Assembly (NCBI GenBank): GCA_024698705.1
Contig: JAILQX010000016.1
Location: forward strand, 1 to 49,305
DNA: 49,305 nt
Source: Lachnospiraceae bacterium
GTDB taxonomy: Bacteria > Bacillota > Clostridia > Lachnospirales > Lachnospiraceae
Direction of reading: 5' to 3'
Within the stretch, counting starts at the first letter, position 1. The number at the start of each line of letters is the position of its first letter. Below are positions 2,472 to 13,110 of the stretch, one piece after another. The notes below the pieces were generated by a model. The model did no database searches. It worked only from the letters and a program-made list of their open reading frames with translations, and was not told where the DNA came from. The position numbers were made by a program, and so were the translations under genes.

Positions 2472-2544
<73 letters not shown>

Positions 2545-2552
2545 CTTGTTCA

Positions 2553-2597
2553 AAAGGCTTCAAATGCTGTAATAATCAGTGTTTGAAGCTTTTTTGT
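2553..2597 (+). terminator. element-supplied terminator behind tRNA-Phe
   Basis: GGCTTCAAA (2556-2564) pairs with TTTGAAGCT (2582-2590, one G-T pair), followed by a T run. It lies just inside the left end and replaces the native terminator that is now at 13114-13145. Confidence 0.75.
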
Positions 2598-2610
2598 TTT
2601 AGTGGATTTT

Positions 2611-2625
2611 TGATGCAAATTGATG
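2611..2625. repeat. candidate integrase arm-type site, left end
   Basis: TGATGCAAATTGATG occurs here and again at 13025-13039, about 70-80 bp inside each end of the element. TGATGCAA recurs immediately after it (2621-2628). Subterminal repeats like this are where tyrosine integrases bind with their N-terminal domain; the role is inferred from position. Confidence 0.5.
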
Positions 2626-2661
2626 CAACATGATGTTTCTGCACGTTTCACGGATTTTTAA

Positions 2662-3924
2662 TCATGTTTCACGAGGGGAGTCTACAGCAAAGGCCTGCTC
2701 CATCTGCTCAAGGATTTCATCATCATCATCGTGAACATTACGAAAATAGTGGAGTGTAGTAGCTACCTGTGAATGTCCCAAGGCTCTTGAGACTTGCATA
2801 AGATTCTTTCCGTTGTACAGATTGCTTGCACTTGTGAATCTGATCTTATGACTGGAGTAATAAGGTACACCGGCTTCCTTGCAATAGTGTGCAAGACGTT
2901 CATCAAAATATGATGTGCGCATCAGATGTCCCTGAGGCATAAACACATATTCGCCGTGTGGATTAATCTCTTTTGCTTCCATAAGAATTTTGACCGCCTC
3001 ATTTGTTAAACGAAGAATTCTTTTACCTTGAGGGGTATTCTTTTTAGTATGGTCTACAACCTCAACAACCTGTGATTCAAATGTCATATCATCTTTGAGT
3101 CTGCGATTCTGTAGAACCTGTTTATGGATGCGGATTGTCCTTTCTTCAAGATTGATATCATCCCATGCAAAGCTTTTTAGTTCTCCGATACGTACCGTGA
3201 GTTGAAACATCAGCCTGATAGCAAGTGCATAAGGCTCATGTTTATCCTTGAGATAACTAAGAAGTGCTATTCTCTCGGATTTCTTGTATACATGATCCTC
3301 ATTGAATGGAACATAGAAATTGAATTCCTTAAAATCTATATTCTTGATGGGATTCGTATCTACAAGCTCACGCCTTATGGCATAATCATACATCTTATTG
3401 AGCAGAGATCTTAGATTACCAATGCGTTTAGCGGTATATTTACCGTCCATGGTCAGCGTTTCAAAAAAATCCAGAAAATCCTTTGTTGTAAGTTTCTTAA
3501 TAGTTTTTTTGACTAAATCGCTTCCGGAGAGAAATTTACGCCAATCACATCTGTTTTCTTCTATCGTTTTGGGCGTAACTTTGTTACGATCCCGCCGATA
3601 CATCATAAAGTCAGGAAATATATCCTCTAAAGATGTTCCGGCATCTCCATAATAGAAAGCATACAAATCTTCAATCAGTCCATACTCAGTTGAAGCAATT
3701 ATCTGCTTCCTCTTACCACAATCATTAACGTATGTGTAATATCTGCCATCAGCTCTTTCACATATCTTGGAATGGTGTACACTATTCAATTTTTGGCGTT
3801 TAGACATAGTTATTCTATATCCAACCTCTGATGCAGATATATTAGCATCGGATATTATGGAATTCAATAAGATTATCTTGTCGGAAGTAGATAGTTCAGA
3901 TATTGATTGCGGTGTTGTATTCAT
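2662..3924 (-). CDS. int: tyrosine recombinase / integrase
   Basis: 420 aa. It catalyses site-specific integration and excision of the element at tRNA-Phe. The catalytic set is complete: Arg245 (LTVRIGELKS), His359 and Arg362 (HKIR), His384 (LGHSQVATT) and nucleophile Tyr393 (LHYF). Residues about 95-185 form the SAM-like core-binding domain, and the N-terminal part before it is probably the arm-binding domain. The gene points toward attL with its 3' end about 115 bp from it, the usual arrangement. The chosen ATG has no clear Shine-Dalgarno and follows directly on an 8-bp inverted repeat; Met40 (MSKRQKL) is an alternative start. AT-rich codon use differs from the host genes. Confidence 0.95.
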   Translation of the reverse strand: MNTTPQSISELSTSDKIILLNSIISDANISASEVGYRITMSKRQKLNSVHHSKICERADGRYYTYVNDCGKRKQIIASTEYGLIEDLYAFYYGDAGTSLEDIFPDFMMYRRDRNKVTPKTIEENRCDWRKFLSGSDLVKKTIKKLTTKDFLDFFETLTMDGKYTAKRIGNLRSLLNKMYDYAIRRELVDTNPIKNIDFKEFNFYVPFNEDHVYKKSERIALLSYLKDKHEPYALAIRLMFQLTVRIGELKSFAWDDINLEERTIRIHKQVLQNRRLKDDMTFESQVVEVVDHTKKNTPQGKRILRLTNEAVKILMEAKEINPHGEYVFMPQGHLMRTSYFDERLAHYCKEAGVPYYSSHKIRFTSASNLYNGKNLMQVSRALGHSQVATTLHYFRNVHDDDDEILEQMEQAFAVDSPRET

Positions 3925-3945
3925 GGCTAACTCTGTCAGTTAGCC
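3925..3945 (-). promoter_or_regulatory. inverted repeat abutting the integrase start codon
   Basis: GGCTAACT and AGTTAGCC form a perfect 8-bp inverted repeat around a 5-nt spacer, ending one base before the integrase ATG. In mRNA it forms a hairpin where the ribosome site should be; in DNA it could be an operator. Confidence 0.5.
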
Positions 3946-4004
3946 AACTATTGAAGCTTGGTGTCTTCGTACTCATCTGACATACTCCTTTCGTATTATT
4001 ATGA

Positions 4005-5123
4005 TCATTCAAAGGGATTTTCCGGTTCATCAGTATCTTTAAAGTCTGATGATCCCTCTGCACGTTCTTTCAGGTTCTGATATGACACATATTCTGATGC
4101 CGGTATTTGAAATGTATGATAACCGCTATCATCTTTCCAGTGATAACAATAGTCCGTGATCCTGCGAAGCAGTTGAGTTTTGCTGTCGATTGTTCTGTTT
4201 GCCAAAGAGACCATCTCGTTATATATTTCATCGGGAGTAAAGATACTTGTTGCGTGTATCTCCGTCCATAAGCTGTAGATGTTATTATATCGGGCATGAA
4301 TTTGCGCTTTATAGCCTTGGAAGATTTGAAGCAGAAAACCGTATTTGAAGCTGTCGGTCTTGATCTCATCCAAGAATATGATCTTTTCGGCTTGATAATT
4401 GTCGAATAGAGCAGTGCAGTTATTGGAGTAGTCCGAACCAAAGAAGACATCTTCCTCGCCATATTCTTCGCACAGTTTTGTATAGGTATATGATTTACCA
4501 CTTCCACTTGCTCCAATATGCCATATGATACGCACTTCACGTAATGGTGGAGTCTCTTGCAGGCGTTTCGCAAAGAAAGCTTTGCGGATAATAGTTTCGT
4601 ATTGTCTGAATACAACGCTTTGTTGCATGATCTGTTCGGGAAGCATGTCTTGATCGATCATTTCTTCAATCTGTAAAAGCATTTCCGTCCGATCATTTGT
4701 CAGAGTAAATGAAGGGATAACACCCTCTTCGTAAAAGGTTTCTGGCAGATTTGTCTCTGCCTTGGATGTATGTCTATCACCTTCTTTTCGAATGTAAGCT
4801 CTGCATTGTTGGGGAGTACCGAAGACTTCTGTTTCCAAATGACAATGATTGAAAAGCTTTTGCATGGCACTCCAACGCTTCTTTTTAGACAATAAGATGA
4901 AAACATGTGTGTGATATACAGAAGACTGCTCATCGCAAAGGCAGAAGTATACTACATGCTTAATCTTATTGTGAATTAGATCGATTATATGATCATGTGT
5001 AAATCCATATTCGACGGGATTGTTGATCTCGATCATAAATGCTTTTGTCTGGCGATCATAAGTCTTTTTTTTGCCGTTGTCCGATTTATTATCCAACGTG
5101 GCATCTTTTTTTTGCTCTTCCAT
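4005..5123 (-). CDS. rep: rolling-circle replication initiator, HUH endonuclease plus superfamily 3 helicase (CRESS-type Rep)
   Basis: 372 aa from the ATG at 5123, chosen because AAGGG lies about 9 nt upstream; an in-frame ATG at 5186 has no such site. HUH domain: motif I AFMIEINNP (28-36), motif II YHTHVF with the metal-binding His71 and His73, motif III RAYIRKEG with nicking Tyr110 and Lys113. Helicase: Walker A GASGSGKS (204-211), Walker B IIFLDE (248-253), and a later IFTPDEIY segment in the place of motif C. Motif I resembles the F-T-x-N-N-P form of CRESS-DNA virus and pCRESS plasmid Reps. By family it nicks one strand in an origin loop, stays bound through Tyr and unwinds the duplex. 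A fitting origin is present at 7271-7299. The gene is transcribed toward the integrase, with 80 bp between them. Confidence 0.93.
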   Translation of the reverse strand: MEEQKKDATLDNKSDNGKKKTYDRQTKAFMIEINNPVEYGFTHDHIIDLIHNKIKHVVYFCLCDEQSSVYHTHVFILLSKKKRWSAMQKLFNHCHLETEVFGTPQQCRAYIRKEGDRHTSKAETNLPETFYEEGVIPSFTLTNDRTEMLLQIEEMIDQDMLPEQIMQQSVVFRQYETIIRKAFFAKRLQETPPLREVRIIWHIGASGSGKSYTYTKLCEEYGEEDVFFGSDYSNNCTALFDNYQAEKIIFLDEIKTDSFKYGFLLQIFQGYKAQIHARYNNIYSLWTEIHATSIFTPDEIYNEMVSLANRTIDSKTQLLRRITDYCYHWKDDSGYHTFQIPASEYVSYQNLKERAEGSSDFKDTDEPENPFE

Positions 5124-5191
5124 TGAAATATCCCTTTCTGAAATCTGTATAGTATAGGAATCATAGCGATCAGATAGAAGTCTCATCGGCT

Positions 5192-5219
5192 ATTGTATAA
5201 GGAATACAGAATTTGACAA
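5192..5219 (-). promoter_or_regulatory. candidate rep promoter
   Basis: On the minus strand TTGTCA (complement of 5214-5219), 16-nt spacer, TACAAT (complement of 5192-5197), about 70 bp upstream of the chosen rep start. The iteron-like repeats at 5279-5313 lie just upstream of it. Confidence 0.55.
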
Positions 5220-5278
5220 ACTTTTTTTCGAAAAAGGGTTGATATCGGGGCGTTCAATAATACCACCAATTATTTGAT

Positions 5279-5313
5279 AATGAGTCTGCGAGATTTCGAC
5301 AATGAGTCTGCGA
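5279..5313. repeat. iteron-like direct repeats between rep and the sigma-like gene
   Basis: AATGAGTCTGCGA occurs twice without mismatch (5279-5291 and 5301-5313) with a 22-bp period, two helical turns. Its position in the divergent rep/sigma intergenic region fits a Rep or regulator binding site. No similar repeat flanks the stem-loop at 7271. Confidence 0.55.
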
Positions 5314-5410
5314 TTTTGGGAAACACGTTTAAAAATCCGAAAGTATAATGCACGTATAGTAAAGCAATCGCGATGGTTTTCTAAAAAAACAATAGGAGGA
5401 AAAGGAACAT

Positions 5411-6103
5411 ATGTTAAAACGCGTTCAAACCTTAATAATAATCATGTTATTTGGTGTATTACGACAGATGATACCGGAGAATAATATTGATCCGATGGGA
5501 TGTAATCAGCTTGAAGGATTGAAACTACCCATTGTCTTCAATAATATAAACGGAAAAGACGAGATCACAGTATATGATAATGGACTTGCGCTTGTAAAAA
5601 AGGATAAAGGACATGGAGAGCCACATAAGTCAGTATTTCCGGTATTAAAAGCAAAACTATTTTACAGATTTGCAGATGGAAGCAGGTGGACGTGCTCTGA
5701 TTATGCGATTCTTGATCAGTTGGATGCAGAAATGGTCTTGTGGGATTATGCAAATTATAAGCTTGAACGAAATGCACATCAAAGGCATTATGATCATTGC
5801 AAGGCAGGGATAGACGAGGATGATAGTTATGATACAGATCGGTATGATGGAATTGGAATAGATCATAAATGGTATCTTGCAAGTGATTATATGAATCCGG
5901 AAATTGAATATTTAAAATATGAGCGTAAAAAAGCTGTTCAAGAAGCTATATCAAAATTGAATGATAAGCAGAAAAAAGTTATACAGTTATATTTCTATGA
6001 AGATATGACTATGGAGGAAATATCTGAAGTTGTAGAAAAAGCTGTGTCAACTGTTCATTACAGATTGTATAGGGGATTAGAGGAACTTAGTCATCTGTTT
6101 TAA
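5411..6103 (+). CDS. sigma-70 region 4-like DNA-binding protein
   Basis: 230 aa. AGGAGG at 5394-5399 supports the start, although 11 nt away. The C-terminal residues 175-228 match sigma region 4: AISKLNDKQKKVIQLYFYED, then TMEEISEVV, then VSTVHYRLYRGLEEL as recognition helix. The first 170 residues have no recognised sigma region 2; they contain a hydrophobic first stretch and an Asp/His/Tyr-rich middle. Sigma-like proteins of this size are common on Firmicutes mobile elements and regulate the element's own transcription, which is the inferred role. A TATAAT at 5344-5349 upstream lacks a good -35. The protein is divergent from rep and is the first gene of the plus-strand block. Confidence 0.75.
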   Translation: MLKRVQTLIIIMLFGVLRQMIPENNIDPMGCNQLEGLKLPIVFNNINGKDEITVYDNGLALVKKDKGHGEPHKSVFPVLKAKLFYRFADGSRWTCSDYAILDQLDAEMVLWDYANYKLERNAHQRHYDHCKAGIDEDDSYDTDRYDGIGIDHKWYLASDYMNPEIEYLKYERKKAVQEAISKLNDKQKKVIQLYFYEDMTMEEISEVVEKAVSTVHYRLYRGLEELSHLF

Positions 6104-6118
6104 ATTGCTGTGTAATTC

Positions 6119-6155
6119 TTTTACATGGGGAGATGGTATATCTCCCTATGTAAAA
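6119..6155 (+). promoter_or_regulatory. 16-bp stem-loop between sigma-like and lipoprotein genes
   Basis: TTTTACATGGGGAGAT (6119-6134) pairs with 6140-6155 with one G-T pair and a 5-nt loop; the outer AATTC/GAATT continues the stem across one bulged base. It lies 16 nt after the sigma-like stop and 55 nt before the lipoprotein start. It could terminate in either direction or act in the leader; there is no T run on the plus strand. Confidence 0.55.
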
Positions 6156-6209
6156 CGAATTGATTGTCATGAATTGCTATGTTATATTATGAGCGAGAGG
6201 TATAACATT

Positions 6210-7094
6210 ATGATAAGAAAAGAGTTAGCAACAGCAATAGGATTGTCGGTAGCATTATCTGTTACCGGTTGTGGAAATACAAGTGTTGTTGTCGAAGAAC
6301 CAAAGACAGATGCAGTTGAAGAAGTAAAAGAAGAAAAGGATTCTACAGCACCCAAGTTAAAATCAAAGGATAAAATAGAGCCGGTTGATTTGGGAGCAGA
6401 GATTATAGCATCAGAATATGTTGAAGTTGAAGATGATTCTGATGTAAGTGTTTATTTTGTTGCTGAAGATGGGGATGTTCTTACTTTGGATATTCCTAAA
6501 GAATTGGATTCAGACACCAAAGAGATAGACTATACTGTTGTTGCCGTAGATGCTCTCGGTAACCGTTCTGATGAAATCATAGTTACGATACCGATTATTG
6601 TATCTGAAGAAACAGCAAAAGAGGAAACACAGGAAAAGGAAGAAAACACAGGCGATACACCAGACTACATCATAGAACCTTGTGAAGACACAACCTATTA
6701 CGCAATTCAAACATGTAATGTACGTTCTGGTCCTTCAACTGAATACGATGCAGTTAGACAGTTAGCACCTAACGAAGAAATTATAGTCAATGGTAGAGTT
6801 AAAGCACCTAATGGTAAGAACTGGTGTGTTATTAAAACATCAGATGGTAGCACACAAATGGTTAGTGGTAGCTTAATATCAAAAGAGAAGATAGCAACCA
6901 AGAAACCAAGTAATAATAGTGGTTCTACCAATCCAAGCACTGGTACAACAAATCCTGCACCAAGTGATTGCTCAGTAGCAGATTGTGAAAGTGACTGTGA
7001 AGGATATTGTAGTGCAGACTGCTTTAGTGATTGGAATCCATCAGATTGTGAAGCATCTTACTGCTCAGGTTCATACTGTGCAGCAGCAGAATAA
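6210..7094 (+). CDS. lipoprotein with Ig-like and SH3b domains and a CxxxC-repeat tail
   Basis: 294 aa from the ATG at 6210, supported by GAGAGG 9 nt upstream. Residues 1-21 form a lipoprotein signal peptide with lipobox SVTGC (Cys21), so the mature protein is anchored to the outer face of the membrane. Then: an acidic linker, an Ig-like repeat (about 45-130; DSTAP opening and VVAVDALGNRSDEI end, as in DUF5011/HYR-type repeats), a second Glu/Lys-rich linker, a bacterial SH3 domain (about 160-228; CNVRSGPSTEYDAV, cell-wall binding by family), a Ser/Thr/Pro linker, and a 43-residue tail with eight Cys, four of them in CESDCEGYCSADC spacing. Such Cys-repeat tails occur in metal-binding or disulphide-rich proteins and in radical SAM-modified peptides; a radical SAM gene is on the same element. 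Confidence 0.8.
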   Translation: MIRKELATAIGLSVALSVTGCGNTSVVVEEPKTDAVEEVKEEKDSTAPKLKSKDKIEPVDLGAEIIASEYVEVEDDSDVSVYFVAEDGDVLTLDIPKELDSDTKEIDYTVVAVDALGNRSDEIIVTIPIIVSEETAKEETQEKEENTGDTPDYIIEPCEDTTYYAIQTCNVRSGPSTEYDAVRQLAPNEEIIVNGRVKAPNGKNWCVIKTSDGSTQMVSGSLISKEKIATKKPSNNSGSTNPSTGTTNPAPSDCSVADCESDCEGYCSADCFSDWNPSDCEASYCSGSYCAAAE

Positions 7095-7118
7095 AACAAA
7101 CATCAATATAAGAACAAC

Positions 7119-7150
7119 AAATAGCCTGTCCAACACTGGGCAGGCTATTT
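7119..7150 (+). terminator. terminator-like hairpin after the lipoprotein gene
   Basis: AAATAGCCTG (7119-7128) pairs perfectly with CAGGCTATTT (7141-7150), with CC/GG extending inward. Only a short T run follows. It lies 25 nt behind the lipoprotein stop and directly before the GC-rich block. Confidence 0.7.
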
Positions 7151-7156
7151 CAATTG

Positions 7157-7310
7157 CCCCACGCGCGGATAGGCGTAGGCGGTCTTGACGCAGGCGGCGA
7201 AGCGGAGCGTAGCGCCGAGCACAGACGCCGTTAAGCGCCGAGCGCAATGGGCAATGCCCCGCAAGGGGCAGGACGTGGGTATACTATTACCCCACGTCCC
7301 AATCGCCCAA
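7157..7310. other. GC-rich structured block containing the candidate replication origin
   Basis: About 150 bp of strongly GC-rich DNA in an otherwise AT-rich element, without a credible gene. It contains AGCGCCGAGC twice (7211-7220, 7234-7243), several GGCG steps, a small hairpin GCCCC/GGGGC (7256-7268) and at its right edge the stem-loop 7271-7299. The rest, 7311-7396, is AT-rich and shows nothing further. Confidence 0.7.
7271..7299 (+). other. candidate rolling-circle origin: stem-loop with nonanucleotide TACTATTAC
   Basis: GGACGTGGG (7271-7279) pairs perfectly with CCCACGTCC (7291-7299). The 11-nt loop TATACTATTAC ends in TACTATTAC (7282-7290). Geminiviruses have TATAATATTAC in an 11-nt loop, circoviruses and nanoviruses a TAGTATTAC, so the loop matches the NANTATTAC consensus cut by CRESS Reps. 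By analogy nicking is expected between 7288 and 7289. The element's Rep is of the same enzyme class, so origin and initiator agree. Confidence 0.82.
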
Positions 7311-7396
7311 CGCATGAAAACCTATGGAAAATCAGAGTTTTTTTTAATTATTTGGGATTTCAGAAAATCCCATTTCCCAAACCATAATTCCCTAAA

Positions 7397-7425
7397 TTGA
7401 AAATTATGACTTTGAAATCTATATT
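7397..7425 (+). promoter_or_regulatory. promoter of the small-gene block
   Basis: TTGAAA (7397-7402), 17-nt spacer, TATATT (7420-7425), 35 nt upstream of the start at 7461. Confidence 0.55.
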
Positions 7426-7460
7426 GTATATAAATATAGTATGAATACCGGAGGAAGAAC

Positions 7461-7856
7461 ATGATAAAACTTGAATTGCTTGATTATACAAAGCGTGATA
7501 AGGGTGGTTATGATTTGTTATTTTTACGTGAACCACCGACCGAAAATCGTAAAAGAGGAAAAAGAAGATGGGTTACTTCTGATGAGCTTAAAGATAAGAT
7601 TCAGAAGGGACTTGTTGAGGTAGATGGTGTCAGTATTACAAAAAAAGGAACGCTAAAGGTAAAGGAGAACACACTTAAATCAACATCGTTGGAGATAAAT
7701 GATAAAAAGATAGCATCATTGGATAGACAAATAGCACAGGAGACTAATATTATAAAGAAAAGAGAGTTGACGGATAGACGTGTAAAGCTTAAACAAAAAA
7801 GTGAGCGATTGATAGCAAAGAAGGAAGATAATTATACTGATGAGGACGAAAAATGA
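7461..7856 (+). CDS. unknown basic, coiled-coil protein (131 aa)
   Basis: Not recognised. GGAGG 7 nt upstream supports the start. The first 60 residues are a compact basic segment (NRKRGKRRWVTSDELKDKI), and residues about 85-125 are heptad-like and rich in Lys, Arg, Glu and Gln (KKIASLDRQIAQETN onward), so a coiled coil is likely. No membrane segment or signal peptide. It is the first gene downstream of the candidate origin, a place where replication or partition accessories are often found; that is position-based inference only. A terminator hairpin follows immediately. Confidence 0.7.
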   Translation: MIKLELLDYTKRDKGGYDLLFLREPPTENRKRGKRRWVTSDELKDKIQKGLVEVDGVSITKKGTLKVKENTLKSTSLEINDKKIASLDRQIAQETNIIKKRELTDRRVKLKQKSERLIAKKEDNYTDEDEK

Positions 7857-7887
7857 CTGGGTATTTGAAATACTCAGTTATTTTTTT
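7857..7887 (+). terminator. terminator after the coiled-coil gene
   Basis: CTGGGTATT (7857-7865) and AATACTCAG (7869-7877) form a hairpin with one G-T pair, overlapped only by the last bases of the preceding stop region, followed by TTATTTTTTT. Confidence 0.75.
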
Positions 7888-7913
7888 GAAAAAGATCATT
7901 CCCAAACCTTTAT

Positions 7914-7942
7914 TACATAGAGAGATTGATATCTCCCAATAT
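7914..7942 (+). promoter_or_regulatory. imperfect stem-loop resembling 6119-6155
   Basis: ACATAGAGAGAT, a 4-nt loop, then ATCTCCC: the same ACATnG..GAGAT / ATCTCCC pattern as the larger hairpin at 6119-6155, here with one internal mismatch and a shorter stem, ending 20 nt before the next gene start. Confidence 0.4.
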
Positions 7943-7962
7943 GAAGGAAAGGAGAAAAAAAG

Positions 7963-8379
7963 ATGAATCCCAATATCAGTAGAATAAAGCTGAATCAGAC
8001 CACTATCTTTGGGAGCAAAAGGAAAGAACTGCCAGTCGATTCTGTTGCTACACGTTTTAAAAGAGATCCGGATACTCATCTTCCTACAGCGGAAATTGAG
8101 GGATATGCAGTTAATGCTTTTACTGCACGTGGTGAAGTACAAACTGTTAAGCTTCCGCTTGAAGTTGAATCTAAGATTGAAGAGATTCGAAGTGCTCTTA
8201 TGAAGGAAAAGATAGTTAAGGTCACATTCACGAATTTGGTCGGGAAGTTTTGGGCATTACTTGATCAGAATAGTGGAAGGGTTCTTCAGGGAATCAGTAC
8301 AACAGCAACTGATGTAGAAATCTTTTCTATTGAAGATCCCGTTGACGAAGATATCGATATGGACGATGTCGTACTGTAA
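7963..8379 (+). CDS. unknown element protein (138 aa)
   Basis: Not recognised. AAGGAG 9 nt upstream supports the start. The N-terminal third is basic (RIKLNQTTIFGSKRKEL), the middle alternates likely beta strands (EGYAVNAFTARGEVQTVKL, VKVTFTNLVGKFWAL), and the C-terminus is strongly acidic (DPVDEDIDMDDVVL). A beta-rich core with an acidic C-terminal tail is the plan of single-strand DNA-binding proteins, which would suit a rolling-circle element, but no sequence signature of such a family was seen. First of a closely spaced run of four genes. Confidence 0.7.
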   Translation: MNPNISRIKLNQTTIFGSKRKELPVDSVATRFKRDPDTHLPTAEIEGYAVNAFTARGEVQTVKLPLEVESKIEEIRSALMKEKIVKVTFTNLVGKFWALLDQNSGRVLQGISTTATDVEIFSIEDPVDEDIDMDDVVL

Positions 8380-8390
8380 CATCATCAAAA

Positions 8391-8411
8391 GGGCGGTCAT
8401 AACGACCGCCC
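8391..8411 (+). terminator. GC-rich stem-loop between two small element genes
   Basis: GGGCGGTC (8391-8398) pairs perfectly with GACCGCCC (8404-8411) around a 5-nt loop. No T run follows and the next Shine-Dalgarno is 10 nt on, so attenuation or mRNA processing is as likely as full termination. Confidence 0.55.
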
Positions 8412-8432
8412 AACCTCTAAAGGAGCAAAAAT

Positions 8433-8972
8433 ATGAAAACATTTAGATATCATCTTGCACAGGAATGCAAGAATGACAAGGAACTTATGGATCAGATTGA
8501 TTACTCTGACAGACTTAGTCCTCGTAATGTTGATCCACGTATTATCGATTCGAGGCTTCCATTTACGAATGTTGAGATACCGGCAAGTATACTAACCGAT
8601 GATGGAAGTGATTATCTACACGCAGTTGAAGCAGATCGTGATGGCGAGAATATCAAGATTCGTATAATCGTTAAACAACAGCAGAGTATTCGCGGTGTAA
8701 ACGTTGTGCTTCCACATGCACACGATCGGATCATGTATCAAAAGTACCGCGATCTTAGGTATCTTATTCGGAATCAAGATGTTGTATATATTTCTTTTCC
8801 GAAGTTATATGTGATGGCGATTAGGAACGTTCGAGGGCTTTATCTTATGGCTCACGATTTCAAGGTTTACGATGCGGATCATAGTAATGAGTCTGCTAAC
8901 AGTTGTCAGGATGATGACTGGTTGTGTGATTTTTCCGATAATGAACCGCCGAAACCTCGAATAATGATATGA
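8433..8972 (+). CDS. unknown element protein (179 aa)
   Basis: Not recognised. AAAGGAG 8 nt upstream supports the start. Soluble, no signal peptide, mixed alpha/beta character. The segment DVVYISFPKLYVMAIRNVRG is the most hydrophobic part, but it is broken by charges and does not look transmembrane. The C-terminus is acidic and ends in a Pro/Arg patch. It overlaps the reading frame region of the next gene by nothing more than its stop, and the next Shine-Dalgarno follows at once, so the genes 7963-9866 probably form one operon. Confidence 0.7.
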   Translation: MKTFRYHLAQECKNDKELMDQIDYSDRLSPRNVDPRIIDSRLPFTNVEIPASILTDDGSDYLHAVEADRDGENIKIRIIVKQQQSIRGVNVVLPHAHDRIMYQKYRDLRYLIRNQDVVYISFPKLYVMAIRNVRGLYLMAHDFKVYDADHSNESANSCQDDDWLCDFSDNEPPKPRIMI

Positions 8973-8989
8973 GGAAGGAGGAAAAACAG

Positions 8990-9376
8990 ATGAAATATGC
9001 AGAAGTGGTTCAATTCTTTGATAGATACAATGCCATAGACAGTCTTGATACAGTAGCAGTCAGTTCGTTTGGCTTTTCGGTTGATCAAATAACCGGAGAG
9101 CCAAAGCAGATGATATTATCGGTATGCATAAACCGATATAGAGCAAATTGTGAATCACCGGAATTTCCGGTGTATATAGATGCCGATAAGATATATCATC
9201 AGCCTGCGCACTACATGCTTTTGGAGAAGTTCGAGAGCGGTGATCCGTTCACATATATCCAGCCCAAGGAGTTAGTTGTGTATCATCACCTGATTGGGGA
9301 GTACTATCGGTACTTCGGATTCTGTGATGGGTTTATTGTTCCGGAGTATTATATGCTTGGTCGTAATAAGAGGTAA
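8990..9376 (+). CDS. unknown element protein (128 aa)
   Basis: Not recognised. GGAGG at 8977-8981, 8 nt before the ATG at 8990, decides the start; an in-frame ATG at 8969 overlaps the previous stop but has no ribosome site. Soluble, rich in Tyr and Phe (about one residue in six), with YIDADKIYHQPAHYMLLEKF and ending DGFIVPEYYMLGRNKR. No known motif seen. Translationally coupled to the genes on either side. Confidence 0.68.
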   Translation: MKYAEVVQFFDRYNAIDSLDTVAVSSFGFSVDQITGEPKQMILSVCINRYRANCESPEFPVYIDADKIYHQPAHYMLLEKFESGDPFTYIQPKELVVYHHLIGEYYRYFGFCDGFIVPEYYMLGRNKR

Positions 9377-9380
9377 GAGT

Positions 9381-9866
9381 ATGGTTACAAATAATAATAT
9401 GACACATGGGATAACCGAACTCATGAAGCAGGGTTACAAATATGCAGTAAATCAATACAGGATCAGAAATGCTCAGAAGCAACAAATAATGATGAATCAG
9501 ATAGCGGCTAATAACAGTAATGCGATACGTTATGATCTGTTTCAGGGATTCAGACACAGCAACTATCCAAACCTTCATCCTATAGTGTCGTTCAACAATA
9601 TTCGGAACCATGGATGGAGTATACAGAACAATAGTGTAATATACAGATATACTCTGGCGAAAACTAGTGCCGAGCCTTTACCAAGCGCAATACTACAAAG
9701 TATGATGTCGAATATGAATACTGACTTGGCAGGGGCGTTAACAACACTGATAGATTTATATGATCCTCAATATGTAAGTATGTTCTATCCTTACCTTTAT
9801 AATGGAGTACTTATCGTTTCTATCAGAGATTTAGGAATTGATGTCGAACTGAGTGTTATGATCTAG
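9381..9866 (+). CDS. unknown element protein (161 aa)
   Basis: Not recognised. AAGAGG 7 nt upstream of the ATG at 9381 supports this start, 4 nt after the previous stop. The N-terminal half is rich in Asn and Gln (MTHGITELMKQGYKYAVNQY, AANNSNAIRYD), and the C-terminal half is more hydrophobic (DLAGALTTLIDLYDPQYV, YNGVLIVSIRDLGIDVEL). No signal peptide or membrane segment is convincing. A diverged remnant of the same C-terminal coding sequence lies at 10336-10392, so this gene once existed in two copies on the element. Confidence 0.7.
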   Translation: MVTNNNMTHGITELMKQGYKYAVNQYRIRNAQKQQIMMNQIAANNSNAIRYDLFQGFRHSNYPNLHPIVSFNNIRNHGWSIQNNSVIYRYTLAKTSAEPLPSAILQSMMSNMNTDLAGALTTLIDLYDPQYVSMFYPYLYNGVLIVSIRDLGIDVELSVMI

Positions 9867-9982
9867 TGAATAAGCCTTGATTCTTCGGGTGCAGGGCTTG
9901 TATTATTATTCAGAGGGTTTTTGATATGTCGACATTATATAAATACAGTCAATTCAATATTATAGTTGAAGATAGGGCAGAT
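9816..9982 (+). repeat. ~167-bp diverged direct repeat, copy A
   Basis: Matches 10336-10503 with scattered substitutions and one indel, offset about 520 bp. It spans the end of the 161-aa gene, a hairpin (9872-9899) and the first codons of a radical SAM gene. In copy A the 161-aa gene is intact, while the hairpin has lost two base pairs and the radical SAM start is broken. Confidence 0.85.
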
Positions 9983-9994
9983 CCAAGTATTTAA
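9926..9994 (+). pseudogene. remnant of a radical SAM gene start
   Basis: ATG with AGAGGG 8 nt upstream, followed by 22 codons (MSTLYKYSQFNII then VEDRAD) that match the first residues of the intact radical SAM protein at 10447, then a switch to unrelated sequence and a stop. It is what is left of a second copy of that gene. Confidence 0.8.
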
Positions 9995-10077
9995 AACAGT
10001 TAATAATCATTTGGATATGATGTATAATAATATATAGGTGCGGTTTAGATTTCTATTTGGAAAGGAAGGTGTAGCAA

Positions 10078-10320
10078 ATGAGAGTGTTATTAGATGATGA
10101 ACAAGTAATTGAAGCTTCGAGTATAATTGGGTATCTTGAAGAATATGGAAAATACACGTTGTCGTTTAACAATGGTGAGAATTTTGATATGCAATTTGAA
10201 TATGATGATAGTATTAGTGTGGAAGAAGCGCAAGAAAGAGCTAAGAGAATAATAAAAGCAGCATATGAAAAAGGGTTAGTTGACTGTTCCAATGAGCCTT
10301 GGGATATATTGTTAAATTGA
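10078..10320 (+). CDS. unknown acidic small protein (80 aa) between direct repeats
   Basis: Not recognised. AAGGAAGG 8 nt upstream supports the start, and TATAAT (10023-10028) suggests its own promoter with a weak -35. The acidic N-terminal half is beta-like (GKYTLSFNNGENFDMQFEYD), followed by an amphipathic helix (SVEEAQERAKRIIKAAYEKG) and the end VDCSNEPWDILLN. It has one Cys and no double-Gly or typical leader signature. Because it lies just before the radical SAM gene, a precursor peptide or a partner is conceivable, but its position between two copies of a repeat suggests a separately acquired or leftover gene. Confidence 0.65.
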   Translation: MRVLLDDEQVIEASSIIGYLEEYGKYTLSFNNGENFDMQFEYDDSISVEEAQERAKRIIKAAYEKGLVDCSNEPWDILLN

Positions 10321-10335
10321 AAATCTTATAATATT

Positions 10336-10392
10336 GTTTCTGCCAGAGATTATGGGAACTGATGTTGAACTGCGTATGCTGATTTGGTGAAT
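10336..10392 (+). pseudogene. frameshifted tail of a second 161-aa-type gene
   Basis: Encodes VSARDYG, then after a one-base shift GTDVELRMLIW and a stop, matching the end VSIRDLGIDVELSVMI of the protein at 9381-9866. Nothing upstream of 10336 continues the similarity. Confidence 0.7.
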
Positions 10393-10420
10393 AAGCCTTG
10401 CATCTTCGGGTGCAGGGCTT
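10393..10420 (+). promoter_or_regulatory. UUCG-tetraloop hairpin in the leader of the radical SAM gene
   Basis: AAGCCTTGCATC pairs over 12 positions with GGTGCAGGGCTT (two G-T pairs) around a TTCG tetraloop, a very stable form. It is followed by an AT-rich stretch and the Shine-Dalgarno AGAGGG at 10433. It may terminate the upstream unit, protect the mRNA end or control translation. Confidence 0.65.
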
Positions 10421-10446
10421 ATATTATTATTAAGAGGGTTTTTGAT

Positions 10447-12945
10447 ATGTTGACACTATATAAATACAGCCAATTTAATATAGTAGTTGAGGATAAGGCA
10501 GATAAAATACTGCTATATAATACCTACACACTGAAATACAGATACCTTCATAAGACCGACTACCTTGATATTTGCAATAAATCAGATATTGATATCGCTG
10601 ACGTACCTGTATATTTAGCAGAATGTGGCTTTATAGTCCCCTGTGACGTGGACGAGATACAACGATTGAAGGACGATGTTTCACAGAAGATAAATGACAG
10701 GGACTTTATTTTCATATCAGTATTCCTGACCTTGGGTTGCAATTACCGGTGCCGGTACTGCTTTGAGCAGTCACAGCTTTGCAATTCAGAATATCTGAGC
10801 AAAGATACGGCTGATGCGATAGTCGCGTTTGTTAAGAAAAGATACTCAGAACATATATACAAAGAACCTTTAAGAATAAAATGGTTCGGTGGCGAGCCTC
10901 TCTTGGCATTAGATATGATCCGGTATATTACCGGCGAATTGAAGTATAATAACATCCCTATCGAAGCAAAGATATATACAAACGGCAGACTTCTCACTAA
11001 AGAGGTTGCTCTTGAACTTAAGGAATCGCTTTGCGTAACCGGTGATGTTGTAATTCCAATTGACGGATTACCGGCAACGTATGCCTTGCAGAAGGGTTGT
11101 GCCGAGAATGATTTTTATGAGGTTGTAAAGAATATCCAAGAAGCTCAGGATATACTGAATATCGTGATACATATAAACGTATCTGAGCAAACAAAGAATG
11201 ATGCTGTACCGCTTGCATCACTGTTAAGGGATAAATATCATATAAAGTCCCGTATTAATGTTGTTAGGGTTGAACCGCAGAATACAGATGTTGTTAATGC
11301 CGATAATAATGTTGATCTAGACGAAGTGAAAAGAGTACAGGCGCTTATATCGGAAAAACCTATAGTGCCTAAAAGGCGTGCAAGTGGATGCGAAGCTCGA
11401 TGGAATGATTATTATGTTGTCAATGTTAACGGTGATCTGTACCGGTGTGAGCATCTGTTCGGACAAAAGAAGTATTGTTACGGCAATATAAGGGATTATG
11501 ATGGTAGACTTCCGCTTAAGAACTCTATATGGGATAACAACAGGATAATAAATGATTGTCGTGGCTGTCCCATACTTCCGATCTGTTTGGGTAATTGCGC
11601 CACAAACAGATACATTGAAAAATTAGACTGTGATAAAGATAAGCGTATAGCATGGCTGTTGAGACATGTAAAGAAACTGGCTGAGTTCAATTCGTATAAA
11701 ATATCCCAGTATAACACTATTGCTGACAGAAATGATAACGGCGATTTATTACTCTTTAATACAATATCTTCAAAAGGAAGATGGGTTCCGACAGGCGTAT
11801 ATGATCAGATGAAAGATCAGGAATGCATCCATTCAATAGATGTTCCGGATTATATGATTAGAGACGGGTATGTGGTTCCGCAATATGTGAATGAACTTGA
11901 ACAACATAATAGTTTAAGTGATAACTCAGATACCCTTGAATTAACTGTTGCGGTGACAAAAGACTGTAACTATCATTGCACATACTGCTTTGAAAAGGGA
12001 AAAAATGACAAGGAAGATATAAACGATCATACAATTCAAGGTATTATGAGTTATGTGTCGGAATTAACAGGAAAGCATGAGTTTAATCGAATCAAAGTAG
12101 TCTATTTTGGTGGTGAGCCTTTGTTGAACATATCCGGAATTAAGGAAATAGCCCGAAGATTAAGAAAAGTAACGGATATTCCGATCACCGGACACCTAAC
12201 AACTAACGGTAGATATTTAACAGCGGACATATTGAAAGATCTTGATGACTGTAACATTAGGACGGCGCAGATAACCATGGATGGAATGCCCAAGGAGTAT
12301 GCGTGTCTTAAAACATGTAATGAGTCGGATTTTTATGAGGTAATTGATAATATAAAATCGATTCAGGATATCATAGAAGTACAGATAAGGATAAATGTTG
12401 GTGATAATAGTGAATCTGTAAAGGAATTAATTGCGTATATAGCAAGGGAGAAGATCAAGTGTTATATGCACTTGGAAGATATAACCTATTTAGAACATAG
12501 CTCTGAAGAGTATCTTGATGGATATTCTAAATACGTTGAATCGTATAAAGACATAATGCGTTTTGTATATAACAATGGGTATCAGGGTTATTTCGGAAAC
12601 ATCATACCAAAGCATCGCAGGGTTGCATGTCAGGCAAAACGACCTTACTATTATGTGATTGATACAAGAGGTAATATGTATAAATGCCCTGAGCTGATAT
12701 TCCGAGAAGAGTATTCTATTGGTAGTGTCTTTGATGGGATAACGAATACTAGACTTAACGATCTGTATATGAGCAATCGGTTGGATGAAAAATGTGATGC
12801 TTGTATAAACAGGCCGTTATGCAATGGAAAGTGTACCACTATCAGGTGTATATATAATAAAGATATAAATTGTGAAGCTCTTGATGAGTTGTATAGATTT
12901 CAAATTCGACTGAACATGGAACATGGATTTACACGTAATCCTTGA
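10447..12945 (+). CDS. tandem double radical SAM-SPASM protein
   Basis: 832 aa from the ATG at 10447 (AGAGGG 8 nt upstream; an upstream in-frame ATG runs through the hairpin). Two homologous modules in one chain, about 409 residues apart. Module 1: N-terminal domain (1-90; LLYNTYTLKYR), radical SAM CxxxCxxC at Cys98/102/105, WFGGEP, then a SPASM domain ending CRGCPILPICLGNC. Module 2: N-terminal domain (about 415-495; LLLFNTISSKGRW), CxxxCxxC at Cys507/511/514, YFGGEP, SPASM end CDACINRPLCNGKC (both C-x2-C-x5-C-x3-C). Each module should hold one radical SAM [4Fe-4S] cluster and auxiliary clusters. SPASM enzymes modify peptides or proteins (sulfatase maturation, sactipeptides, ranthipeptides). 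Substrate unknown; candidates on the element are the Cys-repeat lipoprotein and the 80-aa protein. No peptide transporter or protease is near. Confidence 0.92.
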   Translation: MLTLYKYSQFNIVVEDKADKILLYNTYTLKYRYLHKTDYLDICNKSDIDIADVPVYLAECGFIVPCDVDEIQRLKDDVSQKINDRDFIFISVFLTLGCNYRCRYCFEQSQLCNSEYLSKDTADAIVAFVKKRYSEHIYKEPLRIKWFGGEPLLALDMIRYITGELKYNNIPIEAKIYTNGRLLTKEVALELKESLCVTGDVVIPIDGLPATYALQKGCAENDFYEVVKNIQEAQDILNIVIHINVSEQTKNDAVPLASLLRDKYHIKSRINVVRVEPQNTDVVNADNNVDLDEVKRVQALISEKPIVPKRRASGCEARWNDYYVVNVNGDLYRCEHLFGQKKYCYGNIRDYDGRLPLKNSIWDNNRIINDCRGCPILPICLGNCATNRYIEKLDCDKDKRIAWLLRHVKKLAEFNSYKISQYNTIADRNDNGDLLLFNTISSKGRWVPTGVYDQMKDQECIHSIDVPDYMIRDGYVVPQYVNELEQHNSLSDNSDTLELTVAVTKDCNYHCTYCFEKGKNDKEDINDHTIQGIMSYVSELTGKHEFNRIKVVYFGGEPLLNISGIKEIARRLRKVTDIPITGHLTTNGRYLTADILKDLDDCNIRTAQITMDGMPKEYACLKTCNESDFYEVIDNIKSIQDIIEVQIRINVGDNSESVKELIAYIAREKIKCYMHLEDITYLEHSSEEYLDGYSKYVESYKDIMRFVYNNGYQGYFGNIIPKHRRVACQAKRPYYYVIDTRGNMYKCPELIFREEYSIGSVFDGITNTRLNDLYMSNRLDEKCDACINRPLCNGKCTTIRCIYNKDINCEALDELYRFQIRLNMEHGFTRNP

Positions 12946-12970
12946 CAAGAAGTAGTATTCTTGATAGTAT
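12942..12970 (+). promoter_or_regulatory. outward-facing promoter at the right end of the element
   Basis: TTGACA (12942-12947, overlapping the radical SAM stop), 17-nt spacer, TAGTAT (12965-12970), pointing at attR. No gene follows before the terminator at 13114-13145; the remaining 12971-13088 contains only the arm-type repeat. Confidence 0.55.
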
Positions 12971-13024
12971 TGCATACGTCAAAATGATAATACAATTTAT
13001 CCCATTAGCATCGTTTGCTCAATC

Positions 13025-13039
13025 TGATGCAAATTGATG
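13025..13039. repeat. candidate integrase arm-type site, right end
   Basis: TGATGCAAATTGATG, identical to 2611-2625 and 50 bp inside the right attachment core. Confidence 0.5.
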
Positions 13040-13088
13040 TAAACCGGAACAGAGGTTGGATTTACTCCTTTCTTAGGTATAGTATAAA

Positions 13089-13110
13089 GTTCGATTCCGG
13101 TTCTGGGCAC
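13089..13110 (+). repeat. attR core (22-bp copy of the tRNA-Phe 3' end)
   Basis: Perfect copy of 2524-2545. The upstream half of a tRNA is absent, so this is an attachment site and not a gene. Host sequence resumes immediately after. Confidence 0.92.

Follow-up and report, generated by a model that had tools for sequence, protein, structure and literature searches.

We analysed a 49,305-nucleotide stretch of a Lachnospiraceae genome (contig JAILQX010000016.1; hereafter the window), in which an element of 10.57 kb lies between exact 22-bp direct repeats at a tRNA-Phe gene (Table 1). Its genes encode a tyrosine integrase, a replication-associated protein (Rep) of the type found in circular Rep-encoding single-stranded DNA (CRESS-DNA) viruses, a sigma-like regulator, a lipoprotein with a Cys-rich tail, several small proteins and a double radical S-adenosylmethionine (SAM) enzyme. 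The repeats, the complete integrase, the Rep with HUH endonuclease and superfamily 3 (SF3) helicase, a matching origin stem-loop and this cargo had all been named in an original prediction made from the sequence alone. Each was recovered, the Rep with one expected Asn missing from its aligned motifs and the stem-loop, given then without coordinates, as a candidate at a defined position. The broader claim of an integrated CRESS-type Rep element with its own integrase was also right, but the main text of Kazlauskas et al. 2019 (PMC6668415) already describes this kind of element. The cargo proved as unusual as proposed, although the pairing of the lipoprotein with the radical SAM enzyme had been overlooked.

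Table 1. Features of the element in the window, in order of position (aa, amino acids; att, attachment site; ORF, open reading frame).
Feature	Position	Strand	Evidence and remarks
tRNA-Phe	2472..2545	+	ARAGORN; last 22 nt (2524-2545) = attL
Putative integrase arm site TGATGCAAATTGATGCAA, left end	2611..2628	+	Repeat analysis; function inferred
Tyrosine integrase, 420 aa	2662..3924	-	Pfam Phage_integrase PF00589 5.6e-20; PHROG integrase 2.5e-45
Rep, HUH endonuclease and SF3 helicase, motif III YIRK	4005..5126	-	Pfam, PDB matches, motif alignment
Sigma-70 region 4-like regulator, 230 aa	5411..6103	+	Pfam 6.4e-13
SH3-domain lipoprotein, 294 aa, Asp-Cys-rich tail ending YCAAAE; proposed substrate	6210..7094	+	Pfam SH3_3 1.7e-6; lipobox by eye
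Candidate origin hairpin, nonanucleotide TACTATTAC	7271..7299	+	Hairpin scan, DNA folding
131-aa protein, no assigned role	7461..7856	+	PHROG 8.9e-5, weak, in a charged region
Core gene A, 138 aa	7963..8379	+	Weakly resembles a DUF961-like protein from a related element
Core gene B, 179 aa	8433..8972	+	Synteny with relatives
Core gene C, 128 aa	8990..9376	+	Synteny with relatives
Core gene D, 161 aa	9381..9866	+	Synteny with relatives
Duplicated junction, copy 1 (D end and radical SAM start)	9834..9982	+	149 nt; 22-codon relic from 9926
80-aa ORF between the duplication copies	10078..10320	+	No Pfam match; PHROG only 0.038 or worse
Duplicated junction, copy 2	10355..10503	+	129/149 identical to copy 1
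Tandem radical SAM/SPASM maturase, 832 aa, CX3CX2C in both halves	10447..12945	+	Pfam 7.2e-26, two stretches
Putative integrase arm site, right end, 94% copy	13025..13042	+	Kept in the G399 right end
attR	13089..13110	+	Exact 22-nt copy of attL; terminator-like hairpin next (by eye)

The left repeat is the 3′ end of the tRNA-Phe gene, and the tRNA therefore stays whole after integration. The G+C content is 0.375 in the element and 0.447 in the rest of the window. A copy of TGATGCAAATTGATGYAA just inside each element end (2611 and 13025) is a plausible integrase arm site. We searched two overlapping samples of 200 and 397 genomes of the family, both including the window's own genome; as the profile search scored only the best candidates per genome (two for the maturase), all presence counts are lower bounds. 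The integrase had no close relative among the 397 genomes, its other matches at E<=1e-75 showing 39-41% identity. The terminator-like hairpin inside the left end (2546-2600) resembles the hairpin 3′ of the unoccupied tRNA-Phe gene of a same-genus genome (G203, locus L063), as if a host terminator had been captured.

The same tRNA-Phe site carries related sequences in a genome from another genus of the family (G399). There, the tRNA gene is followed by the C-terminal part of an integrase (identified by reading) and an SH3 lipoprotein, the right end is that of the window element, and a 23-nt repeat occurs at 8725-8747 and 10321-10343 of the locus (L121), 1,596 bp apart from start to start. The last 87 nt of the right end, attR included, are identical between the window and G399 at 80 positions. 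G399 gave no match to the window Rep. This locus is what remains of an element of the same kind, and it supports the boundary in the window; site-specific integration with direct repeats is thus seen with a boundary recurring in a second genus, as the original prediction had expected of related strains. Within the genus, the exact 22-nt att sequence was present at nine of 11 tRNA-Phe loci (one clipped by the contig start), each copy preceding its own terminator-like sequence (by eye). No element protein was found in the stretch compared at these 11 loci (1.5 kb downstream in the nine), nor a second att-like copy at any of them. The proposed search for empty sites thus yielded unoccupied target genes and no clean empty site, because the genes flanking the element in the window do not lie beside them.

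The Rep matched the Pfam families Viral_Rep (4.2e-4) and RNA_helicase (5.4e-4), both slightly short of the Pfam cut-offs, and chains annotated as 'replication-associated protein' in PDB (6.4e-6 and 1.6e-5); a longer form starting at 5186 is possible. Alignment revealed motif I, the HUH motif II (as HTH), the YIRK motif III, Walker A and Walker B, and thus an HUH endonuclease fused to an SF3 helicase, the Asn of motif C aside. The YLxH signature, which marks pCRESS4-8 in the main text of Kazlauskas et al. 2019 (PMC6668415), is absent, and the YIRK motif III rules out the YLxH side. A match to this Rep was detected in 15 of the 200 genomes, the window's own among them. In a tree of 23 Reps taken from family genomes, Butyrivibrio and inovirus records, with eukaryotic virus and pCRESS reference Reps left out, the window Rep paired with that of Butyrivibrio MB2005 (99/98), and the five Reps from inovirus records fell in a different clade.

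The eukaryotic-type CRESS replication origin is a hairpin with NANTATTAC in its loop. Such a hairpin, with the nonanucleotide TACTATTAC, lies between the lipoprotein gene and the gene for the 131-aa protein, and by this generally known consensus it is a candidate origin. Under a strict rule, which required the exact NANTATTAC and a minimum G+C and was fixed after the hairpins from a looser scan were known, a hairpin was found near 20 of 21 YxxK-type Reps, all five inovirus records among them (L026 was the exception), and near neither of two YLxH-type Reps, both of which come from one genome. Shuffled sequences produced such hairpins in 5 of 2,300 cases over all 23 places and in 1 of 100 for the window; chance hairpins were common in the loose scan (89/300 shuffles with a stem >=8 and 25/300 with a stem >=9). 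The 106-nt stretch around the window hairpin folds well as DNA (z -3.7; 0/200 shuffles as good). The window hairpin lies 2.1 kb upstream of the Rep start, and in 15 of the 20 cases the hairpin lies within about 350 nt of that start. TATTAC was not found in the main text of either of two papers on bacterial pCRESS Reps, and no paper combining NANTATTAC and pCRESS was found in the library searched, although the origin may be reported under other words. At another locus (L038, 7499-7612), about five 19-nt direct repeats (AATGTCTATGCAATYATGC) with an iteron-like arrangement stand some 500 nt from the origin hairpin.

Core genes A-D reached no family above cut-off in Pfam, PHROG and further profile searches. 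The block is shared with two other elements, both at tRNA-Gly genes: that of Butyrivibrio MB2005 carries a weakly sigma-like gene followed by A, B, C, D, Rep and integrase (repeat spacing 7.9 kb), and that of genome G116 carries a lipoprotein followed by A, B, C, one extra gene, D, Rep and integrase (7.05 kb). Because the G116 Rep belongs to the other clade and its integrase uses another tRNA, Rep and integrase have probably been exchanged around the A-D block. Gene C was detected in two of the 397 genomes. Structure prediction of A and D from the window and Butyrivibrio rows gave a mean predicted local distance difference test (pLDDT) of 46 and 47. Against one DUF961-like neighbour, A scored higher than all shuffles (0/60 as high); against two others, 14/60 and 16/60 shuffles were as high. 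Several other Rep elements of the family encode FtsK-like ATPases instead (Pfam 1.5e-11 in L034; below cut-off in L037), and further ones were recognized by reading among the ORFs listed. We asked whether D is related, as a soluble form, to the protein whose gene precedes that of the FtsK-like ATPase, and rejected this idea: with six proteins of this kind, the score was reached by 5 to 47 of 60 shuffles, and profile comparison was also weak. Comparisons of A with B and of A with C likewise gave no support for paralogy. IMG/VR scans with Rep, the maturase, D, the lipoprotein and C detected no relatives; they were based on short patterns and are weak negatives.

Three further observations concern related Rep loci. 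In L028 (483-11715), two CRESS-Rep elements stand in tandem at a single tRNA-Gly; three att-like repeats accompany them, and their Reps belong to two different clades. L018, L028, L034, L036, L037, L039 and L040, for only some of which element borders were fixed, seemingly carry a secreted protein or lipoprotein gene of another type (LRR_5, Thr-rich and others; by eye, among the ORFs listed). L032 (9218-17094) combines a CRESS-type Rep near a Zot gene with a 78-aa ORF and an 801-aa secreted-looking protein, and is an inovirus prophage candidate.

The SH3-domain lipoprotein and the double radical SAM enzyme of the window probably form one system. Maturase matches at E<=1e-45 were found in three of the 397 genomes, namely, the window's, G193 and G275, and in none of 19 other genomes of the genus at E<=1e-30. 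The lipoprotein profile A2 matched 15 of the 397 genomes at 1e-12 and reached full length (233 positions) only in the same three, the other twelve matches stopping at position 195 or earlier. The three full-length matches follow by construction, because A2 was built from the lipoproteins of those genomes; the information of the search is that no other sampled genome has the Cys tail. In G193, two Cys-tail lipoproteins precede one maturase, and in G275, one lipoprotein precedes two maturases, the genes being adjacent in both cases. The G193 enzyme and the second enzyme of G275 share 55% and 54% identity, respectively, with the N-terminal half of the window enzyme, and the first enzyme of G275 shares 39% with the C-terminal half. 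By these half-by-half identities, the window enzyme unites two paralogues in one protein, their order reversed relative to the genes of G275. CX3CX2C is kept in both halves, and 11 Cys columns are common to at least five of the six alignment rows. PADLOC returned viperin-model matches to the radical SAM part only.

Of the last 55 residues of the lipoprotein tails, 8-11 are Cys; Asp-Cys pairs are conserved, and the tails terminate in Ala-Glu. The excess of 'DC' pairs over composition was clear for the window tail (0/5000 shuffles as high) and the two G193 tails (0/5000 and 3/5000). In the G116 element and the G399 remnant, the lipoprotein is of SH3 type and has no Cys tail; no maturase matched in G116 at 1e-20, and the one match in G399 (3.9e-27) is distant and unlinked. 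This distribution, in three genomes only, is what an acquisition of tail and enzyme would leave. A search for the gene set of the element, as originally proposed, thus recovered the A-B-C-D block in Butyrivibrio MB2005 and G116 and the maturase with a Cys-tail lipoprotein in three of 397 genomes, but G193 and G275 have no match to the window Rep. In the window, the 149-nt duplication has left 22 codons of the maturase start as a relic, and the 80-aa ORF lies between its copies. The G275 operon (lipoprotein-maturase-maturase; L101, 6951-10719) is flanked by a 40-nt duplication (85%). It stands between what we take to be rsmG-like and parB-like genes, the duplication presumably carrying parS-like and DnaA-box-like sequence, and looks as if it had been inserted near the chromosome origin. 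On the 10-kb plasmid p8 of Sarcina sp. JB2 (L102), a related radical SAM gene adjoins an MFS transporter gene.

The element fits best among the integrated plasmids of the pCRESS type, a known kind, and there on the side that lacks YLxH. According to the main text of Kazlauskas et al. 2019 (PMC6668415), site-specifically integrated elements house 97.5% of the viral-like Reps that bacteria carry outside groups 7 and 9. The p4M-like pCRESS1-3 plasmids of that text share with the window element the HUH-SF3 Rep, a YxxK motif III without YLxH, their own integrase, direct repeats at a tRNA gene and the lack of a recognized virus structural gene, whereas the A-B-C-D block and the radical SAM-lipoprotein cargo go unmentioned in it (0 'radical', 0 'lipoprotein'). 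The size of about 10.6 kb, originally thought large for such a replicon, is at the upper end of related sizes without being alien to them: repeat spacings of six integrated elements were about 3.7-8.3 kb and five inovirus records with such Reps measured 5.7-10.2 kb, and the excess is mostly due to the 2.5-kb radical SAM gene.

Taken as a whole, we explain the locus, with a probability of roughly two in three, as an integrative rolling-circle plasmid of the pCRESS kind with a two-gene lipoprotein-maturase surface cargo. The integrase would recombine attP with the 3′ end of tRNA-Phe, keeping the tRNA whole, and Rep would nick the TACTATTAC hairpin and drive rolling-circle copying of the excised circle. 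The sigma-like gene would act as a regulator and A-D as the backbone block. The double radical SAM/SPASM enzyme would bind the lipoprotein in the cytoplasm and install cross-links in its Asp-Cys tail, most likely Cys-to-Asp thioethers by analogy with described maturases. The lipoprotein would then be exported and lipid-anchored, its SH3 domain and rigid cross-linked tail facing outward, possibly for surface exclusion or competition; this surface role is speculation.

Relatives of the Rep also occur in filamentous phages, and the element might instead be a reduced or satellite inovirus prophage, with small genes encoding or borrowing filamentous-phage parts. Roux 2019 (PMC6813254, available part of the paper) describes a Rep family of inoviruses (iPF_00203) whose helicase motif is that of eukaryotic single-stranded DNA viruses; Rep matches in the phage collection were six bajarodino records, of which the five checked were all Inoviridae with Zot, and their Reps are homologous to that of the window (27-31% identity) and lie beside the same kind of origin hairpin. 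In the family itself, the L032 Rep lies near a Zot gene (Pfam 6.9e-19), and the 131-aa protein weakly matched (8.9e-5) a PHROG labelled 'released from the phage upon host infection'. In contrast with the five bajarodino records, which have Zot and circular genomes, no element gene had a Zot/pI morphogenesis ATPase or coat match in Pfam or PHROG, where, apart from the match of the 131-aa protein, structural labels appeared only at chance level (0.08 or worse), and the window Rep belongs to another clade. The two syntenic relatives likewise showed no Zot, either on ORF reading or, for six of their proteins, in PHROGs; the C and D profiles found nothing in IMG/VR and D nothing in phage records (A and B were outside these searches). 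We consider a prophage origin very improbable. Another reading, that of a decaying genomic island, formerly mobile, now fixed and with its cargo kept by selection, draws on the 1.6-kb remnant to which such an element has decayed in G399, on the relic duplication at 9834-9994 and on the missing maturase in the 19 other same-genus genomes, but the integrase, Rep and core frames are open, the att copies identical and the origin hairpin intact, and this reading appears quite unlikely.

The cargo allows a different doubt, since the radical SAM enzyme could act on another peptide, such as the product of the 80-aa ORF directly upstream or a host peptide, with the lipoprotein merely travelling along. 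This idea fits the separation of the two genes in the window and the existence of SH3-type lipoproteins that lack the Cys tail, as seen in the G116 element and the G399 remnant. However, lipoprotein and enzyme occur in the same three of 397 genomes and are adjacent in both others, the Cys tail is present with the enzyme and missing from the G116 and G399 lipoproteins, where the maturase is absent or distant and unlinked, and the 80-aa ORF has one Cys; we regard a different substrate as unlikely.

Several observations weigh against the plasmid reading with a paired lipoprotein and maturase. The motif C position of Rep reads SIF and lacks the usual Asn, and the genus yielded no empty site whose flanks are those of the window. 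In the window, the lipoprotein is set apart from the maturase by five genes or more (7461-9866, and in addition the 80-aa ORF). G012 (1.4e-39; no A2 match at 1e-12) and G399 (3.9e-27) have more distant maturases but no such lipoprotein, so that the link between the two rests on three genomes, and DC enrichment in the G275 tail was not clear (168/5000 shuffles as high). None of G193, G275 and G399 has a match to the window Rep (0/3), which indicates from G193 and G275 that the cargo system also exists outside such elements. As for the chemistry, neither maturase half reaches any NCBIfam peptide-maturase equivalog cut-off among the matches listed; PapB-type maturases are among the distant matches, with the two halves scoring 87.5 and 108.1 bits to NF047865, whose cut-off is 340. 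In the available part of PMC9413430, PapB links Cys-Xn-Asp with n=0-6 and does not cross-link a transposed, Asp-first motif. Many tail Asp residues stand directly before Cys, an arrangement to be compared with that failure of PapB, and the window tail also contains CX3D and CX2D pairs. Modification of a signal-peptide-bearing protein before export would also be unusual; the conserved N-terminus of the lipoprotein doubling as a leader is a speculation.

PapB-type ranthipeptide maturases and related radical SAM/SPASM enzymes (TIGR04463, TIGR04280, CefB) resemble the window enzyme in combining radical SAM and SPASM domains with a Cys/Asp-rich partner, but in the window two maturases are fused, the partner is a 294-aa SH3 lipoprotein and the scores are far under the curated cut-offs. 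No comparable lipoprotein maturase was found in our literature searches, which were not exhaustive. We tentatively propose, at somewhat less than even odds, a class akin to ribosomally synthesized and post-translationally modified peptides, in which the 'precursor' would be a whole SH3 surface lipoprotein whose Asp-Cys tail would carry cross-links made by dedicated radical SAM maturases (single, paired or fused), spread in part by virus-like rolling-circle plasmids and serving as a device of surface exclusion or competition.

Many single-stranded DNA viruses of eukaryotes are proposed to have arisen from the CRESS-type Reps that bacterial plasmids carry (main text of Kazlauskas et al. 2019, PMC6668415). 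With a hairpin beside 20 of 21 bacterial and phage YxxK Reps, the start of replication in this group is directly testable by a nicking assay. The new part of the element is its cargo, which may define a new radical SAM system and suggests that radical SAM enzymes of the peptide-modifying type have also been put to use on a surface protein anchored in the membrane, which would be new. The fused enzyme of the window, the two enzymes of G275, the one enzyme with two substrates of G193 and the tail-less lipoproteins of G116 and G399, where there is no close enzyme, provide a comparative set for this system in the family.

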